Position numbers and translations under genes: made by a program
Assembly (NCBI GenBank): GCA_035512495.1
Contig: DATKDW010000007.1
Span: forward strand, 1-33,619
DNA: 33,619 bases
Direction of reading: 5' to 3'
Source of the DNA: Acidimicrobiales bacterium
GTDB lineage: Bacteria; Actinomycetota; Acidimicrobiia; Acidimicrobiales; CADCSY01
The notes under the pieces: generated by a model
What the model was told of the DNA's origin: nothing
Database searches by the model: none
What the model saw: the letters and a program-made list of their open reading frames with translations, nothing else
Shown here: piece after piece, positions 4,249 through 33,619 of the stretch
Layout: every line of letters starts with the position of its first letter
Position numbering within the stretch: position 1 is the stretch's first letter

Positions 4249-7200
4249 GTGGTGGGGGTGGCTGCGGCGCAGCAGAGCTCGACGCCTGCCGAGCCCGACG
4301 ACGAGGGCAGGACGGGACGACAGCGACGGTGGGGCCGCGTGGCCGGCCGGCTCGCCAGCGCCGCGGTGGTCGCCGCCATCTTCGGGGCGATCTTCCCCAA
4401 CCTCGTCGACATCTCGGCCACCGGCGCCGTCCTCACCTCCGAGGTGTCGACCGCCGAGCTGGTGGGCCTGGCGCTGCTGACGTTGGCGTCGCTGGTGGCG
4501 TCGTTCCTGGCGCTCATGGCGGTGCTGCCCGGCCTCGATATGGTGCGAGCGGGACTGGTCAACGTCACCAGCACGTCGGTGGCCTACGCCGTGCCCGGCG
4601 GCGGGGCGGCGGCGACGGGGTTGAGCGTCGCCATGCTCCGGTCGTTCGGCTTCGGTGGGGCTGCCATCGGCCGCGCCATCCTCGTCGGCGGCTGGTGGAA
4701 CCTGGCGGTGAAGGTGGGCCTGCCCCTACTGGCGCTGGGCCTGCTGGGCGTCAGCGGTGGCGCCCGCGACGAGGTGCGCGCCGCAGCGGTGGTCGCCCTC
4801 GTCATCCTCGCCGGGCTGGTGGTCCTGGCGATCGCCGCCGCCACCGGCGAGCGCCCGGCGATTGCCGTCGTCCGGAGGGCCCTGCGGGTGGCGGCACCGG
4901 TGCTGCGGCGGGCGGGGTGGGTGCCGCCCGCCGACGTGGGCGCGAGGGTGGCAGCGTTCCGCTCCGACACCGGCGGGCTGATCCGGCGCCGCTGGATGTG
5001 GCTCACCGGCGCCACCCTCGCCTACCACCTGAGCCTCTTCGGTGTGCTGTGCATGGCGCTGGCCGCCGTGGGCGCACTGGAAGACGTGGGGGTACTGCCG
5101 GCGCTGGCGGTGTTCGCGGTGGTTCGCCAGCTCACCGCCGTGCCCGTCACCCCGGGCGGCGTCGGACTCGTCGAGCTCGGCCTGGTGGGGGGCCTCCACC
5201 TGGCGGGTGCCGGCCTCGAGGACGCCACCGCCGCGGTGTTGCTCCACCGGGGCTTCACCTACCTCCTCTACCTGCCGGCCGGCATCCCCACCTACGTCGC
5301 CTGGCTCCGGCTGCGCCGGCACGACCCGGCGCCGGTGGCCGTCGAGCCGGCCGAACGCGCCAACCGGACCGGGTGGCGGCCGGGGTGGCAGCCGGGGTGG
5401 CGGCCCCTCGAGCGTGCACGCCTCGTGGTGTCGGTCGTCGCCCTGGTCGGGCTGTGGCTGGCCGCCAGCGGCGCCCGCCCCGGCCGGCTCGAGGTCGACC
5501 TCTTCGGCCTCGTCAACCGGTTGCCCGACGCCCTCATGCCAGTGCTGTGGCCGGTGATGCAGCTGGGGTGGATCGGCGCCGCGGTGGCGTGGTCGACGGT
5601 GACGCTCGTCCGGCGGGGGCCGGGCCGGGCGGTCGCCCTCCTCGGGGCCGGGACCACGGCATGGGTGCTGGCCAAGGTGGTCAAGGACGTGGTGGGGCGG
5701 GGCCGCCCGGGGGCGCTGCTCGAGGAGGTGGTGCTCCGCGGCGACGCGCCCGTGGGCGGCCTGGGCTTCGTCGCCGGGCACACCGCGGTGGCCGCCGCCC
5801 TGGTGACGGTGGCGGCGGCCACGGCCAGGCGCCGCACCCGCTGGGTGCTGTGGGGGTTGGTGGCCCTGGTAGGCGTGGGCCGGGTCTACACCGGCGCCCA
5901 CCTCCCGCTCGACGTCGTCGCTGGCGCCGCCCTCGGCTGGGGGGTGGGCATCGCGGTGCGCTGGCTGAGCGGGACACCGGTTCGCGCCCCCAGCCCGCGG
6001 GCCGTCACCGCCGCGGTCGGGTCCCTCGGCATCGATGTCGAGGGGTTGGTGGAGCGGCGTCGGGAGCCGCCGGGGGCGGCGACGTTCGTGGGCCGCGCCA
6101 CCGACGGCCGCCGGATCTTCGTCAAGGCCATCGGCCGCGACCAGTGGGACGCGGAGGTGGGCCACCGCCTCTGGCGGCTGCTGGCGTTCCGGGAGGCGGG
6201 CGACGAGGCGCCGTTCTCCACCGCCAAACAGCAGCTCGAGCACGAGGCCTACCTGCTGGCCCTGGCCCGCGCCGCGGGGGCGAGGGTCCCCGTGGTGGTC
6301 TCCACCGTGGCGGCCGGCGCCGACTGGCTGCTGGTACTCGAAGGAGTCGACGGCACCCCCCTCGCCGAGCTTCCGGCCGAGCGATGGGACGACGAGCTCC
6401 TCGGCGCCGTGTGGCGGCAGGTGGCCCTGCTGCACCGCTCCGGGATCGCCCACCGCCAGCTTCGACCCGACCACGTCCTCGTCGACGATGACGGCCGGCC
6501 TTGGCTGGTCTCCCTGCAGTGGGCGGAGGCCGGTGCCTCGCCCGGGACCCGGGCCGCCGACACCGCCGAGCTGCTGGTCACCGCCGCTGCCGCGGTGGGG
6601 CCGGAGGTGGCGGTGGCCGCCGCCGTCGAGGGCCTTGGGCCCGCAGCGGTGGCCGAGGCCGTCCCACTCCTGCAGCCCCTCGCCCTCACCCCGCCCACCC
6701 GAGCTGCCCTCGCGAAGAGCCCGGCGCTGCTGGCGGAGGTAGCCGCAGCCGTTGCCGGCACCACCGGCTCCCCACCGGCGCTCCCCCAGCGGCTGGTCCG
6801 CCGCCCCCTCCACCCACCGACCCTGCTCGTCGCCGCCCTCGCCAGCGCCGTCGTCTACCAGGTGGTAGCGGGCGTGTCGGGGGTGAGTCAGACGGTGCGG
6901 GCCCTCGGCGGCATCGAGGCCGGCTGGCTGGTGGCCACGGTCGCGGCGGTGGTGCTGGGCTATGTCTCGGGCGCCGTTGCCCTGCTCGCCTCCTCCGGCC
7001 GCCCCCTGGCGCTGGGCCGCACCGTCGTCGCCCAGCTGGTCGGCTCGGCGGTGTCGACCACGGAGTGGCCGAGGACCGGCGCCCTCCTGGCGAGTGCCTC
7101 CTACCTGCGGGCGGTGGGCGTGGACCCGGCCCGGGCAAGAGGCGCGGCGCTGGCCACCGGCACCGCGGGGGCGGTGATCCACACTGCCGCGGTCGCCGGT

Positions 7201-10185
7201 GTGGGGGTGTGGCTGGTGGTCGCCATGCCCCGCACCGGCGGGCCGATGCAGCGGTGGCTGCCGATGGTCGCCTTCGCCGCGGCCATGGCCGTGGTCGGCG
7301 TGGTGGCCTCGGCGCCGTTGCGCCGGGTGCTGCGCGGTGGCGTGGGGTCGGCCCGGCGGGCGTTCATCGGCGTGGTGCGCGGGCCGGGCCGAGCAACGAT
7401 GCTCCTCGGCGGGGCCGCCGGGGTGACAGCCATGACCACCGCCGCGTTCCTCATGTCGCTGGCGGCGGTGGGTGGTCGGGTCTCGGTGCCGGGCGGCGTG
7501 CTGCTGTACCTCGTGGTCGCCGCCCTGGCGCCGCTCGCCCCATTCCCTGGTGGCATCGGCCTGGTCGAGCCGGCGCTGGCCGGCGGGCTCATCGCCCTCG
7601 GGGTCTCACCAGGTCAGGCGGCGAGCGGGGTGATCCTGTTCCGCCTCGTGACCTACTGGTTGCCGGTGGGCCCGGCGTGGCTGGCGCTGCGCCGCCTCCC
7701 CCTGCGCACCGACGACCGTGACCCCGCGTCCGAGGCGGGCGAGGACGACCTCGATCACGACGACGGCGACGTCGTCGCCGAGCTGGCCGGCGCGCCCGTC
7801 CCCGCCACCCGCTACTACCGCCACCCCGCCGACGCCGCGCGCGCCGTGACCGGGATCGTGCTGGGCCTGACGGTGGCGCTCTTCGCCGGCGGTGGGATGC
7901 TCCTGCCGGTCGAGGTCGACGCCTTCCGCCTGGTGAACCGCCTGCCGAGCCTGCTGTTCGCGCCGGTCAACGCCATCATGCAGGCGGGGTGGGCCGGCGC
8001 CGTGCCCCTCGCCGCCGGCGTGGCCGTCATCGCCCGCCGCCGGCGCCTCGCCCTCGACCTGCTGGTGGCGGGCCTGTCGGCGTGGCTGCTGGCCAAGGTG
8101 GTCAAGTCGCTGGCCGACCGGGGGCGCCCGGGAGCGCTGCTCGACGAGGTCGTGCTGCGAGGGGCAAGCGAGGGCGGCCTCGGGTTCGTGTCCGGCCACG
8201 CCGCGGTGGCCGCCGCCATCGCCACCGTGGCGAGCGGCCACGTTCGCCGGCCGGTGCGGTGGGCGCTGTGGGCGGTGGCGGTGGGGGTGGGCATCGGCCG
8301 GGTGTACGTGGGCGCCCACTTCCCGCTCGACGTGGTCGCCGGAGCGGCGCTCGGGTGGGCCATCGGCAGCCTCGTCCACCTGGCACGGGGCACCCCGGGG
8401 CACCTGCCGGCGCCGACCGATGTGGTGGGCGCTCTGCGAGACCTCGGGATGCGGCCCGCCGGGGCCCGGTGGGTGGCCGCCGACGCCCGGGGGTCGATCC
8501 CCTTCGAGGTGACCACCGCCGAGGGCGGGCGGCTGTTCGTCAAGGCAATGGGCCGCGACCAGCGCGACGCCGACCTGCTGTTCAAGCTGTGGCGCTTCGT
8601 CGCCTACCGGGAGACCGAGGACGAGGCGCCGTTCACCACCCCCAAGCGCCAGCTGGAGCACGAGGCATACCTGACGATGCTCGCCGCCTCCGCCGGGGCG
8701 ACGGTCCCCAAGGTGGTCTCCACCGGCGGCGACGAGGAGGGGGTCACCTACCTCGTCCTCGAGCACGTCGACGGCACGGTGCTCGCTGATCTCGGCGCCG
8801 ACTCGATCGACGACGAGCTGCTCGACCGGTTGTGGGCCCAGGTGGCGCTCCTCCACGCCGCGGGCATCGCCCACCGCGACCTTCGGGCGTCCAACGTGCT
8901 GGTCGACCCCGACGGGCAGCCGTGGCTGGTGGACTTCGGCTTCGCCGAGGCGGGCGCCGGCGACGACCGGCTCCGGCGCGACGTCGCAGAGCTGCTGGCG
9001 TCGAGCGCCTTGCTCGTTGGTGCGGAGCGGGCGGTGGGGGCCGCGGTGCGGGCGCTCGGGCCGACCCAGGCGTGGGAGGCGGCGCACTTCGTGCAGCCGT
9101 TCGTGCTGTCGCGCGCCACGCGCACCGCGGTGCGACGGCGGCCGGCGCTGCTATGGCTGCTGCGCAGCGACCTCGCCGATGCCGCCGGGCGCCCCGACCC
9201 GACGCCGGAGCGCGTCGTCCGGGTCGGGATGCCACAGCCCATGACCCTGTCGGTGATGGTCGTGGTGGCCTACGGCGTGTACCACACCCTCGTCACCGCC
9301 ACCGGGGTGCGCGACCCACTGGGCATCGTGGGCGACGGGTCGCTGCGCTGGCTGGGGATCGCTGTCTTGGGCGTGGTCGTCGGCCACCTGACCGGGGCGG
9401 CCAAGCTCATCGCCGCCGCACGTCACCACCTGGCGCTGGGTCGCACGGTGGTGGCGGTGGCGGCGGCGTCGCTCGTGGCACGGACGTCGGCGCTGGGGCT
9501 GGAGGCGCCGGGCTACACCGCCCTGTACCTCGAGCGCAGCGGCCTGCCGCGGGCCCGGGCCCGCGGCGCCGCCAACCTCGCGGTGGTGGCCGCGATGGCC
9601 GGGCGGGTGGTGGGCTGCGCGGTGGCGCTGGCACTGGCGATCACCGGGCCGGCCAGCGACGAGATCGCCGACGGCCCGTGGGAGCTGGTGGCGGCGGGCA
9701 TCGCCGTCGGCGCCCTCTTCGGGGTCGCCCCCGCCGTGATGCGACGGGCGCACCTGGTGGAGGCCATGCAGTCGCTGCCGTCACCCCGGGAGCTGACCCA
9801 CCACGTCGGGATGCTGGTGGGCCTTGTCCTCGGGGCGGCGGGCTCGACGGTTGCGTTCATGGTCTCGGCGGTGGCGGTGTGCCGGGCGGTGGGCGTCGAG
9901 CAACCCGCCGCGGTGATCGCCGCCGTGTTCCTCCTCGCCGCCGGGGCCGCGGTGCTGGCGCCCGTGCCGGGCGGGGTCGGCGTGGCCGAGGTGTTCGCCG
10001 CCTTCGGGCTCATGGTGGCGGGCACACCCACCGGGTCGGCGGTGGTCGCCGCCGTGGTGTTCCGCCTGGTGACGTTCTGGCTGCCCCTCGCCCCCGCGCT
10101 GTGGGCCAGCCGGGTGCTGCACGTGTGGGTGGCGCCGGGAGCCACCGCCGAGCGCCCGGCGACGGGCGAGCCTCAGGAGGGCTGA
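4249..10185 (+). CDS. Giant flippase-PAP2-kinase membrane protein with a duplicated module
   Basis: A single uninterrupted 1,978-residue protein. Seven domains can be seen: flippase-like (UPF0104/lysylphosphatidylglycerol-synthase membrane type, about 30-355, PGGVGLVE at 302-309), PAP2 phosphatase (about 385-570: K479-x6-R486-P487, GH at 510-511, R545-x5-H551-x3-D555), kinase-like (about 580-815), flippase (about 838-1155, PGGIGLVE at 1100-1107), PAP2 (about 1195-1375: K1286-x6-R1293-P1294, SGH1317, R1351, H1357, D1361), kinase (about 1385-1635) and flippase (about 1660-1960, PGGVGVAE at 1907-1914). The second kinase keeps Lys1432, HRD (1542-1544), Asn1549 and DFG (1562-1564). The first has HRQ (735-737), His742 and SLQ (755-757), so it should be inactive. 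Flippases 2 and 3 resemble each other more than flippase 1, pointing to duplication of a PAP2-kinase-flippase unit. By inference it moves and phosphorylates/dephosphorylates a lipid or lipid-linked sugar in the plasma membrane; the substrate is unknown. Confidence 0.88.
5371..5406 (+). repeat. Three 12-bp repeats coding [12 protein letters not shown]
   Basis: Three near-identical 12-base units encode residues 375-386 of the giant membrane protein, in the linker between flippase 1 and PAP2 domain 1. They look like the product of replication slippage. No counterpart is seen in the second linker. Confidence 0.8.
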
Positions 10186-10915: not shown

Positions 10916-12166
10916 GTGCCGAACAACTCGGGTGTGGAGGACAACCGCCTGCCCACCGCCACGGCCACCGCCCCGGCATCCGATCTCTTCGATCAGCTGC
11001 CCGACGCCCTCGTGGTGATCGACGGCACCGGGACCGTCACCCGTGGCAACCGTGCGGCGGAGCGGATCATGGGGCGCTCCGCCGGCGGGCTCGTCGGGAT
11101 CAACGGCTTGGACCTCGTGCACCCGGACGACTTCCACCTCGCCGCCCTCTCCCTGTCATCGGTCGAGGGCAAGGAGGTCGGCACCCCCATCGAGCTGCGC
11201 ATCGCCACCGACCACGGGTGGCGCCTCATCGAGCTGGTCGGCGCCCCCCTCGATGACGGCCACATCGTCCTGTCCATGCGGGACCTGACCGAACGGCGAC
11301 GCTGGGAGGTCGCCGGCGGCGACGTGGCCAGGTTCCGCACCTTGGTCCAGCACGCCACCAGCCTCACGATGCTCCTCGACGCCGACGGGGTGGTGACCTC
11401 GGCGTCCGGCGCCCTCAGCCGCCAGCTCGGACTCGACCCCGAGCTGGTCTGCGACCACCCGCTGGTGCAGATCGTCCACCCCGACGACCGCATCCTCGTG
11501 CGGGCCGCGATCGTCGCTGCCACCGGCAGCGACCCGGGTGCGGCGCCCACCCCCGTGGAGGCCCGCCTGTCCGGCCACGAGGGTCACGTCCCGTTCGAGC
11601 TGACGATCGTCTCCCTGCTCGACGACCCCACCGTCAGCGGCCTCGTCGTCTCGGGCCACGACATCACCCGCCTCCGCGCCGCCCAGGAGACCCTGGCCGA
11701 GCTGGCCCACTTCGACTCGCTGACCGGGCTGCCCAACCGTCGTGCGTTCGACGCCGCCCTCGAGGACCAGTGGCGGCTCACCGCGCGCGACGGCGTCGAC
11801 TCCTACGTGATCGTGGTCGACCTCGACGAGTTCAAGGAGCTCAACGACCGTCACGGCCACGCCACCGGCGACGAGGCGCTGCGACAGGTCGCCCACGCAC
11901 TGCAACGGTGCGTCCGCAGCACCGACGCCGTGGCCCGCCTCGGCGGCGACGAGTTCGGCATCATCCTCATCCGCTGCGGCGGCGAGGCCGCCGCCATCGG
12001 CTTCGCCGCCGAGCTCGACGACCGCATCAGCGAGGCGTGCAACAACCTGCCCGCGCCCCACGTCGGCCTCAGCCTCGGCTACGCCTCCCTGCGCGCCGCC
12101 GACTCGGCCCCCGCCGCCCTCCACCACGCCGACCTCGCCATGTACGCCAAGAAGCGGAGCCGGTAG
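10916..12166 (+). CDS. PAS-PAS-GGDEF diguanylate cyclase
   Basis: A 416-residue soluble enzyme expected to make cyclic di-GMP from two GTP. Two PAS sensor domains are seen (about 24-120 and 140-250), each with an HPDD motif (VHPDDF, VHPDDR). A short helical linker leads to the GGDEF domain (about 260-416). The active-site motif is intact, GGDEF at 343-347. The inhibitory RxxD site is Arg334-Asp337, five residues before it, so product inhibition is likely. The LTGLPNRRAFD and DLDEFKELND motifs are also present. There is no membrane segment and no EAL domain. The GTG start is the only one close to the putative promoter. The STAS gene follows 227 bases downstream on the same strand. Confidence 0.93.
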   Translation: MPNNSGVEDNRLPTATATAPASDLFDQLPDALVVIDGTGTVTRGNRAAERIMGRSAGGLVGINGLDLVHPDDFHLAALSLSSVEGKEVGTPIELRIATDHGWRLIELVGAPLDDGHIVLSMRDLTERRRWEVAGGDVARFRTLVQHATSLTMLLDADGVVTSASGALSRQLGLDPELVCDHPLVQIVHPDDRILVRAAIVAATGSDPGAAPTPVEARLSGHEGHVPFELTIVSLLDDPTVSGLVVSGHDITRLRAAQETLAELAHFDSLTGLPNRRAFDAALEDQWRLTARDGVDSYVIVVDLDEFKELNDRHGHATGDEALRQVAHALQRCVRSTDAVARLGGDEFGIILIRCGGEAAAIGFAAELDDRISEACNNLPAPHVGLSLGYASLRAADSAPAALHHADLAMYAKKRSR

Positions 12167-29218: not shown

Positions 29219-30904
29219 ATGGCCGAGCACGAACTGCGGGACAAGGCGCTGCGGGCGCTGCTCGTGCAGTACCCCGACGCCCTGGTGGGCGGCATCCGCG
29301 AGGACGGGCTCTTCGTCCCCCTCCCGCCGAGCGTGCCCGTCGCCGGACACCGCTCCCCCCAGGCCCGGTCGGCCCTCGACCTCGTCCACCCCGGCGACCG
29401 GGCCAAGGTGATCTCGGGGTGGGAGCAGGCACGGGACGACGGCGACTCCGAGGGTGAGGGTGTGGGCCAGATGGTGGTGAGGATGGCCGGAGACACCGAC
29501 GCCCGCGGCATCATCCACATCGCCGACGTCCGGGCCACCCATGGGGTCCGGGTGGCGGTGATCGTGCCCCTCGACGACGACGGCACGGGCCCCCTCGACG
29601 ACGCGGCGGCGATCGAGTCGCCACCGCCCCGCCTGGTGCGGACCCACAAGGACGGGCTGGCGGTGCTCGTCCACGTCGAGCCCGAGATCATGGAGATACT
29701 GGGGTGGGAACCGTCGGAGCTGCTCGGACGACGCATGCTCGATCTCATCCACCCCGACGACCATGAGACGGCCATCAACGCCTGGATGGAGCTGCTCGCC
29801 AAGCCGGGCAGCACCAACCGGATACGGGCCCGCCACCAGCACCGTGACGGCCGGTGGGTGTGGGTCGAGATCTCCAACCGGAACCTCCTCGAGGACCCCG
29901 ACGCCGGCTACGTCGACAGCGAGATGCTCGACATCTCCGAGGAGATGGGCGCCCTCGACGCGCTGCGCGCCAGCGAGCAGCTCCTCCGGCGCCTCGCCGG
30001 CGCCCTCCCCGTTGGGGTGGTGCACCTCGACCCGGACCAGCGCCTGGTGTACGCCAACGAGAAGCTGCACCAGATCGTCGGCGCCAGCCCCGCGCGCCTG
30101 CCGCGACGCCTGAGCGAGTGCGCGGTGGAACAGGACGTCCTCGACGCCGCCCTCGGCGACGCCCTCGCCGGCACCGACGTCGACGTCGAGCTGCACATCG
30201 ACCCCTTCGACGGTGGCCCGCGCCGGCGCTGCACCATCGCCCTGCGGGCCCTCACCACCGACGAGGGCGTCGTCACCGGCGCGGTGGGCTGCGTCACCGA
30301 CGTGACCGACGCGTCGCGCATGCGGGCCGAGCTCGAGTACCGGGCCATGACCGACGAGCTCACCGGCTGCGTGAACCGGGCCACGGCCATGGCCGCCCTC
30401 GACCGAGCCCTCGAGTCCTCCGCCGGCGACACCGCGGTGGTCTTCGTCGACCTCGACCGGTTCAAGGCCGTCAACGACCGCTTCGGCCATGCCGTTGGCG
30501 ACGGCCTGCTGGCGGCCATCGCCGCCCGTATCCGGGCGGTCGTCCGCGCCGGCGACGTCGTGGGCCGCGTCGGCGGCGACGAGTTCCTCATCGTGTGCCC
30601 GAACGTGGCCGACCGCGCCCACGGGATGGCCCTCGCCGAGCGGGTGGTCGAGGCCATCGCTCGGCCGTTCTCGATCGAGGGCGTCAAGGTCCACACCAGC
30701 GCCAGCGTGGGGCTCGCCTGGGCGGCCGACGCCGAGGACGCCGACGCCCTCATCGCCCGTGCCGATGACGCCATGTACCGATCCAAGCGTGCGGGCGGCC
30801 GCCGGGCCGTCCTCGCCGAGACGGCCGACTCGGGCGTCACGATCGTCGACGAGCTCGGTCCCCACCTGGAGCGACTCCACAGGCCCGGGAGCTCTACCCG
30901 CTGA
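29219..30904 (+). CDS. Multi-PAS GGDEF diguanylate cyclase
   Basis: A 561-residue cyclic di-GMP synthase. The N-terminal region (about 1-135) looks like a divergent PAS-type domain with DLVHPGDR. A clearer PAS follows (about 140-255, LIHPDDH and DGRWVWVEIS), then a third (about 258-372). The GGDEF domain (about 375-540) has LTGCVNRATAM, DLDRFKAVNDRFGH and intact GGDEF at 452-456. The inhibitory RxxD site is Arg443-Asp446, five residues before it. There is no membrane segment and no EAL domain. GGAGGAGG just before ATG 29219 is a strong ribosome-binding site, unlike the leaderless neighbours. Confidence 0.93.
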   Translation: MAEHELRDKALRALLVQYPDALVGGIREDGLFVPLPPSVPVAGHRSPQARSALDLVHPGDRAKVISGWEQARDDGDSEGEGVGQMVVRMAGDTDARGIIHIADVRATHGVRVAVIVPLDDDGTGPLDDAAAIESPPPRLVRTHKDGLAVLVHVEPEIMEILGWEPSELLGRRMLDLIHPDDHETAINAWMELLAKPGSTNRIRARHQHRDGRWVWVEISNRNLLEDPDAGYVDSEMLDISEEMGALDALRASEQLLRRLAGALPVGVVHLDPDQRLVYANEKLHQIVGASPARLPRRLSECAVEQDVLDAALGDALAGTDVDVELHIDPFDGGPRRRCTIALRALTTDEGVVTGAVGCVTDVTDASRMRAELEYRAMTDELTGCVNRATAMAALDRALESSAGDTAVVFVDLDRFKAVNDRFGHAVGDGLLAAIAARIRAVVRAGDVVGRVGGDEFLIVCPNVADRAHGMALAERVVEAIARPFSIEGVKVHTSASVGLAWAADAEDADALIARADDAMYRSKRAGGRRAVLAETADSGVTIVDELGPHLERLHRPGSSTR

Positions 30905-33164: not shown

Positions 33165-33619
33165 CTAGCCGCTCCCTGGATACGAGTCGGGATCGCGTGG
33201 GTCGGTGCCGTGGGCCTCTTCCTTCTTGTTGCTGTAGCCGTCACCGTCGATGTCGGGGTCACACGCGTCGCCCCTGCCGTCGCCATCCATGTCGGCCTGA
33301 TCGGGGTTGTGGTGCTTGGGGCAGTTGTCGAGGTGGTCGGAGATGCCGTCGCCGTCGCGGTCGCGGTCCGGGCTGCCGCCGCCCTTGCCGGCCGTGACGG
33401 TCCGGGTCTCCGTGGCGACGACCTCGCCGTCGTCCTCCCACCTGATGTCCAGCTCGTGGGTGCCCCGGGGCAGCTCCACCGTGATGGCGAAGTCACCGGA
33501 GCCGTAGGCGGTGTCGATGGCCTGGCTGCCGACGACTGCGCCGTCCACGTAGATCCGGACGTGCTCCGTGGCGACGGGACAGCCGTCGGTGCCGTCGCCG
33601 GTCGCGTCCTGGCAGTCGT
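33165..33619 (-). CDS. C-terminus of a secreted protein with thrombospondin type-3 repeats
   Basis: The gene continues beyond the right end of the window; 151 residues are visible. [15 protein letters not shown] stretch comes first, then a beta-rich segment ([13 protein letters not shown] through [11 protein letters not shown]). Calcium-binding Asp repeats follow: [28 protein letters not shown] and [12 protein letters not shown]. The protein ends DPDSYPGSG. These repeats are those of thrombospondin type-3 and OmpA-like extracellular proteins, so it should be exported and bind calcium at the cell surface. The role is unknown because the N-terminus is missing. It is co-directional with the GAF-ATPase gene, 109 bases upstream of it. 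Confidence 0.85.

Follow-up and report, generated by a model that had tools for sequence, protein, structure and literature searches.

A single gene in the genome of an Acidimicrobiales bacterium encodes a real and unusual fusion of known domain types, in which three flippase domains (F1 to F3), two PAP2 phosphatase domains (P1 and P2) and two kinase domains (K1 and K2) lie on one chain. The arrangement is partly conserved in culturable actinomycetes, and its residues predict one live and one dead phosphatase-kinase (P-K) module. The protein looks like an undescribed lipid-handling machine. Tentatively, and with somewhat less than even confidence, we propose that its seven domains work on a phosphorylated lipid as one membrane-bound machine, driven by the one live catalytic module. 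The gene was analyzed within a DNA stretch of 33,619 nucleotides, hereafter called the window.

Domain layout and catalytic residues

The open reading frame has no internal stops over its 1,978 codons, counted from a GTG start. Codon-position GC content is coding-like in 20 of 20 blocks of 100 codons (GC3 0.90-0.98, GC2 0.43-0.64), and because composition does not shift at the domain joints, we see no frame break at any junction. Pfam profiles recognize PAP2 twice (2.9e-30; 105.1 bits for the protein), LPG_synthase_TM (PF03706) three times (1.6e-20; 74.2 bits against a gathering score of 33.4) and kinase stretches, one by Pkinase (3.3e-12) and several by APH/Kdo. The original prediction, made from the DNA letters alone, had placed these domains on one chain in the order F1-P1-K1-F2-P2-K2-F3. 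The profiles and the unbroken frame agree with that order, and the PAP2, flippase and kinase assignments all match their families.

Self-comparison likewise bears out the proposed homology of the repeats. P1 and P2 are 53% identical (Z 41.8 versus shuffles) and K1 and K2 are 51% identical (Z 58.7). F2 and F3 share 36% identity (Z 21.3), and F1 resembles F2 (Z 7.2) and F3 (Z 2.0) far more weakly than these two resemble each other. The words said to be shared by the repeats, [14 protein letters not shown] and [21 protein letters not shown], are indeed present, and LALGRTVV and FRLVTxWLPxxPA occur in F2 and F3 and are absent from F1.

Table 1. Coordinates of the fused gene and its domains in the window.
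Feature	Position (nt)	Strand	Residues	Remarks
Full ORF, F1-P1-K1-F2-P2-K2-F3	4249..10185	+		GTG start, 1,978 aa, one open frame
F1, LPG_synthase_TM/MprF-type flippase domain	4330..5328	+	28-360	Pfam, MprF-like model, tree
P1, PAP2 domain	5410..5976	+	388-576	motif-2 Ser to Ala509 (nt 5773-5775)
K1, predicted pseudokinase	5977..6768	+	577-840	residue losses, kinase fold retained in the model
F2, flippase domain	6781..7713	+	845-1155	Pfam, self-comparison, F tree
P2, PAP2 domain	7816..8391	+	1190-1381	three motifs intact
K2, kinase domain	8392..9213	+	1382-1655	catalytic residues intact
F3, flippase domain	9226..10128	+	1660-1960	orthologous to the C-terminal F domain in Actinomadura

The second P-K unit carries a complete catalytic complement. 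The motifs of P2 are K1286-x6-R1293-P1294, S1315-G-H1317 and R1351-x5-H1357-x3-D1361, and every checked residue of KX6RP, SGH and RX5HX3D is intact in all eight fused proteins, which comprise the window protein and the orthologues described below. K2 (K1432, E1470, D1544, N1549 and D1562) reads HRDLRASNV...VDFG, and its Lys, Glu, HRD Asp, Asn and DFG Asp are kept in the same eight proteins. Altogether, 14 of 14 catalytic positions of unit 2 are invariant across the set.

P1 reads AGH where P2 reads SGH, and the motif-2 Ser is Ala in each of the eight proteins. Further P1 losses, all in Actinomadura/Spirillospora, remove the C1 Lys in three proteins and the C3 Arg in one. P1 therefore fails the catalytic PAP2 motif set, yet it is a PAP2 homologue by sequence. 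In lipid phosphate phosphatases, loss of the motif-2 Ser usually cripples activity, and this residue is present in every P domain scored intact among 116 single-unit relatives; P1 may nonetheless retain activity with Ala at this position. K1 of the window protein reads HRQ...DHV...SLQ in place of HRD...N...DFG, the changes being HRD to HRQ (Q737, nt 6457-6459), Asn to H742, and DFG to SLQ (S755, nt 6511-6519). The DFG Asp is missing from K1 in all eight fused proteins, the HRD Asp and the Asn are also missing in the window K1, and K1 of A. formosensis has lost its C-lobe. The modeled K1 nevertheless keeps a kinase fold (Bud32/PRPK, Z about 17), and K1 is under purifying selection among Actinomadura (dN/dS 0.23-0.45). 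Because catalytic residues are lost while K1 stays under constraint, we read unit 1 (P1-K1) as most probably a copy kept without catalytic function, not as a second cycle.

These residue states bear on the possibility that the chain carries two full phosphatase-kinase-flippase cycles, as two P and two K domains recognizable by sequence might suggest. We consider this very improbable, since the key residues just listed are absent from P1 and K1, every fused orthologue shows the same DFG and Ser losses, and one orthologue no longer has a complete K1. The two kinases of the original prediction thus stand as folds and not as a pair of catalysts, and its two working phosphatase-kinase pairs fall with the loss of key unit 1 residues from all eight proteins. 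On residue state, we reject two working P-K modules on one chain.

Fused orthologues, relatives and the origin of the chain

A scan of 84,980 species genomes, with an alignment of five close units as the query, reveals seven isolate genomes in which a single open reading frame encodes a colinear F1-P1-K1-P2-K2-F3 chain that aligns along its whole length with the window protein. The carriers are Actinomadura macra, A. formosensis, A. geliboluensis, A. chibensis, A. bangladeshensis, Actinomadura sp. 6K520 and Spirillospora albida. These chains of roughly 1,500-1,600 aa lack only F2, and their P2 domains are 67-72% identical to that of the window. In a narrower set of 59 relatives, 198 genomes of the class and 198 of the phylum, no second genome with two P-K units was found; one long frame (1,259 aa, genome G092) holds one unit only, preceded by an apparent non-coding overrun.

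The window genome is a draft of 97 contigs, and its long frame might in principle be an assembly or frameshift artefact that joins separate genes, an outcome that the original prediction had itself named as grounds for refutation. This is exceedingly unlikely, as frame and codon composition are continuous across the joints, the repeats are just ~50% identical, and colinear fused frames occur in seven independent isolates. Moreover, the contig also carries an HrpA-like helicase gene with 72-81% identity to genes of same-family genomes, which assigns the contig to the window genome. For the six shared domains the isolate chains lead us to reject a join altogether, and F2 at its position is known from the window genome alone, that is, from one assembly. 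In another genome of the same family (G004), an F1 piece (L034, G004:C188) and a P-K-F piece (L035, G004:C283) both lie at contig ends and adjoin apparent IS3-type transposase ends, as though a fused gene had been disrupted by inserted elements.

Phylogenetic trees support the earlier proposal of a P-K-F duplication joined to a more ancient F1. In the P-K tree, every unit 1 and unit 2 sequence falls in a single clade (98/96), which also contains the single unit of G004. Window unit 2 groups with its Actinomadura counterpart (93/77); the unit 1 sequences fall outside this pair with weak mutual support (61/20). A P-K duplication private to the window lineage is not the best tree, although the AU test does not reject it (p = 0.219), and the shared P1 Ser-to-Ala change argues for a common unit 1 across the fused proteins. 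In the F tree, window F1 and Actinomadura F1 group together (100/95) among stand-alone F genes (99/97) and are split from F2/F3 (100/100), such that F1 is not closer to F2 than F3 is. F2, F3, Actinomadura F3 and the G004 F domain form one clade (100/99) within the P-K-F proteins, with window F2 and G004 F branching together at its base. It is therefore as likely that the Actinomadura line lost F2 as that the window genome alone gained it by duplication.

The single-unit relatives anticipated earlier also exist, as separate F1, PAP2 and P-K-F genes. F1 is a neighboring gene oriented divergently to P-K in three genomes (G003, G280 and G389), the gene order in Geodermatophilaceae is P*K-F1-PAP2, and Mycolicibacterium and Nocardia carry a stand-alone PAP2 followed by P-K-F. 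As read from the sequences, the fusion is one of already-neighboring genes: F1 and P-K-F would have been joined, and the P-K-F unit duplicated.

P-K-F proteins of ~800-1,000 aa are widespread among Actinomycetota, occur also in Saccharibacteria, and are annotated 'lysylphosphatidylglycerol synthase domain-containing protein'. Among the 116 single-unit proteins, 97 have a degenerate P and 58 a degenerate K, whereas both are intact in 16, which come mainly from Nocardia/Mycolicibacterium, G256, G274 and Saccharibacteria. Window unit 2 belongs to this intact minority; every P and K catalytic residue is kept in it, in Actinomadura unit 2, and in Nocardia, Mycolicibacterium, G256 and G274. Because so many relatives have a degenerate P, and half a degenerate K, catalysis is not what the P-K-F family as a whole conserves. 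We also considered whether a stand-alone PAP2 compensates for a degenerate P and rejected the idea, since a PAP2 gene lies nearby in 15 of 47 degenerate cases versus 8 of 14 intact ones, which amounts to no association. In M. gilvum and several Nocardia, the P-K-F gene adjoins a stand-alone PAP2 gene.

Such widespread degeneracy in a chain that is kept could mean that K and P are mainly regulatory, with lipid catalysis secondary or absent, and that lipid scrambling by the F domains is gated by the kinase folds through ATP sensing or protein phosphorylation. A K1 that is dead yet constrained would fit this reading, and the stress and dormancy neighbors described below would suit energy sensing. 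However, the unit 2 clade keeps all P and K catalytic residues, which is hard to explain without catalysis, and we regard a mainly regulatory protein as unlikely.

Further P-K(-F) proteins are seen in Saccharibacteria or other metagenome-assembled genomes (L142:6962-11695, L143, L150, L158 and L162); L142 has two adjacent P-K-F genes, with P and K motifs intact in one. A second paralogue of 620-670 aa, PAP2-like plus kinase without F, lies beside F1 genes (L033:6882-8744, and similarly in G005, G008-G011, L169, L170 and L173). Its kinase keeps HRD/N and has DVAF in place of DFG.

Proposed mechanism and gene neighborhoods

It is established for both families that PAP2 enzymes act outside the cytoplasm and that kinases draw on cytoplasmic ATP; P2, F and K2 could therefore dephosphorylate, move and rephosphorylate a lipid. 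We favor a module of this kind, with regulatory copies attached. Given the known topology of PAP2 enzymes, P2 would take the phosphate off a lipid at the extracytoplasmic face, and the MprF-type F domains would carry the lipid between leaflets. K2, with its Bud32/Kdo-kinase-like fold, would then re-add the phosphate at the cytoplasmic face in a coupled step, or might instead phosphorylate another lipid or a glycan head group there. The non-catalytic P1-K1 copy may scaffold or sense, perhaps a nucleotide or lipid, and F1 and F2 may add translocation paths.

The likeliest substrate would be a polyprenyl (pyro)phosphate or a glycolipid carrier, used in a specialized envelope process linked to stress or dormancy. 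The window genome also encodes a UppP phosphatase and a PopT/DUF368 translocase, and general undecaprenyl-phosphate recycling is therefore unlikely to depend on the fused protein. In its boldest form, the proposal becomes a one-polypeptide lipid-phosphate cycle with a built-in pseudo-phosphatase/pseudokinase regulator that recycles or remodels a lipid carrier in Actinomycetota dormancy, which we consider doubtful, and appreciably less probable than the general scheme.

The proposed link to dormancy comes from gene neighborhoods in Actinomadura and Nocardia. These loci include genes for CtpF-type P-type cation ATPases, HypF/HypD, pyruvate formate-lyase-like, universal stress, CBS-BON, nitroreductase, S30AE and LuxR response-regulator proteins, and CtpF-, Acg-, Hrp1- and TAG-synthase-like genes are among the neighbors. 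The DosR regulon of M. tuberculosis includes universal stress proteins, ctpF, acg, hrp1 and tgs1 (PMC4090907). A universal stress gene is present in 10 of 16 Actinomadura/Nocardia loci, compared with 0.83 expected from own-genome density, a statistic that treats related genomes as independent and whose probability is indicative only. DosR boxes upstream number 12 against 8.1 expected in the Actinomadura group, and 12 against 6.7 in the Nocardia group.

Around the window's own fused gene, whose neighbors encode an S9 peptidase, a TIM-barrel protein, an LMW phosphatase and a GGDEF protein, dormancy-type or lipid-related genes were not seen. The window holds two PAS-GGDEF diguanylate-cyclase genes (10916-12166 and 29219-30904) and, near the contig end, a minus-strand frame with thrombospondin type-3 repeats (33165-33548). 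In three Actinomadura genomes, the gene directly upstream of the fused one, with a 4 bp overlap or a 3 bp gap, encodes a polysaccharide-deacetylase protein some 530-560 aa long (L127:4139-5818, L128:2987-4579 and L129:2934-4520). A P-type ATPase with a fused C-terminal hemerythrin domain also occurs upstream (L127:763-4116 and L130:571-2889).

In A. formosensis, the start of a WS/DGAT TAG-synthase gene lies 24 bp downstream of the fused gene, and two Nocardia P-K-F genes have further WS/DGAT matches nearby. These genes raise the possibility that the substrate is phosphatidic acid/diacylglycerol (PA/DAG) and that the protein controls the PA-DAG-TAG branch in hypoxic non-growth: P2 would make DAG at the outer face, F would return it, and K2 or the neighboring WS/DGAT would use it. 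The presence of tgs1 in the DosR regulon (PMC4090907) is in keeping with this, as is the description in PMC8225852 of mycobacterial phosphatidic-acid phosphatases that supply DAG for TAG. However, just one of the seven fused loci has an adjacent WS/DGAT gene, SepP (66.5 bits) and not PgpB (24.0 bits) is the best NCBIfam relative of P2, with both below cut-off, and neither Pfam nor NCBIfam matches K to a diacylglycerol-kinase family. A PA/DAG substrate therefore seems improbable to us, and we retain the polyprenyl or glycolipid carrier as the favored candidate.

Predicted folds and relation to known protein families

The unit-2 model (pLDDT 83.6) places K2 closest to Bud32/PRPK (Z 17.2, rmsd 3.2 Å, 199 residues), followed by WaaP (Z 14.3, rmsd 3.8 Å, 193 residues); the structure-match list of this model, which includes F3, is filled by kinases. 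In the F1-P1-K1 model (pLDDT 72), the P1 part is unreliable at about 30-60. F1 matches the MprF proteins of P. aeruginosa (9j8s; Z 23.4, rmsd 3.8 Å, 291 residues) and R. etli (7f47; Z 20.7). P. aeruginosa MprF is reported to be a promiscuous lipid scramblase that does not need an external energy source (PMC11980842).

We found no description of a PAP2-kinase-flippase combination in the open-access literature. The PAP2-kinase-MprF flippase family is thus widespread, seemingly undescribed and hidden under uninformative annotation, and opposing phosphatase and kinase domains plus flippases on one chain are conserved in culturable isolates. If the live module acts as we infer, a membrane lipid would be dephosphorylated, flipped and rephosphorylated by one enzyme, and the protein would offer a way to study how non-growing actinomycetes handle their lipid carriers. 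A clear mutational test is offered by the duplicated modules, one live and one dead.

F1 of the window protein shares with MprF the flippase fold, and all three F domains match PF03706, but the protein lacks the aminoacyl-PG synthase domain and reaches 70 of the 600 bits of the NF033480 equivalog cut-off. P2 has the KX6RP, SGH and RX5HX3D motifs of PAP2-type undecaprenyl-diphosphatases, yet it sits in a multidomain chain and falls short of the equivalog cut-offs for the undecaprenyl-diphosphatase SepP (NF047884; 250 bits) and for PgpB (261 bits). K2, with its Lys, Glu, HRD, Asn and DFG, resembles Bud32/PRPK, Kdo kinase and WaaP in fold, but it follows a PAP2 domain on a membrane chain, and the window kinase scores 82.5 of the 125 bits required for the Bud32/KEOPS equivalog (TIGR03724). 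Closer likenesses are found in the P-K-F proteins of the Mycolicibacterium gilvum plasmid pMSPYR101 (WP_013470206.1) and of Nocardia, which have the same order of PAP2, Bud32/Kdo-like kinase and LPG_synthase_TM domains and, like window unit 2, intact P and K motifs. Unlike the window protein, they comprise one unit of about 800-850 aa, with neither F1 nor a second copy. The Actinomadura/Spirillospora fused chains share six colinear domains, a live unit 2 and a degenerate unit 1 with the window protein.
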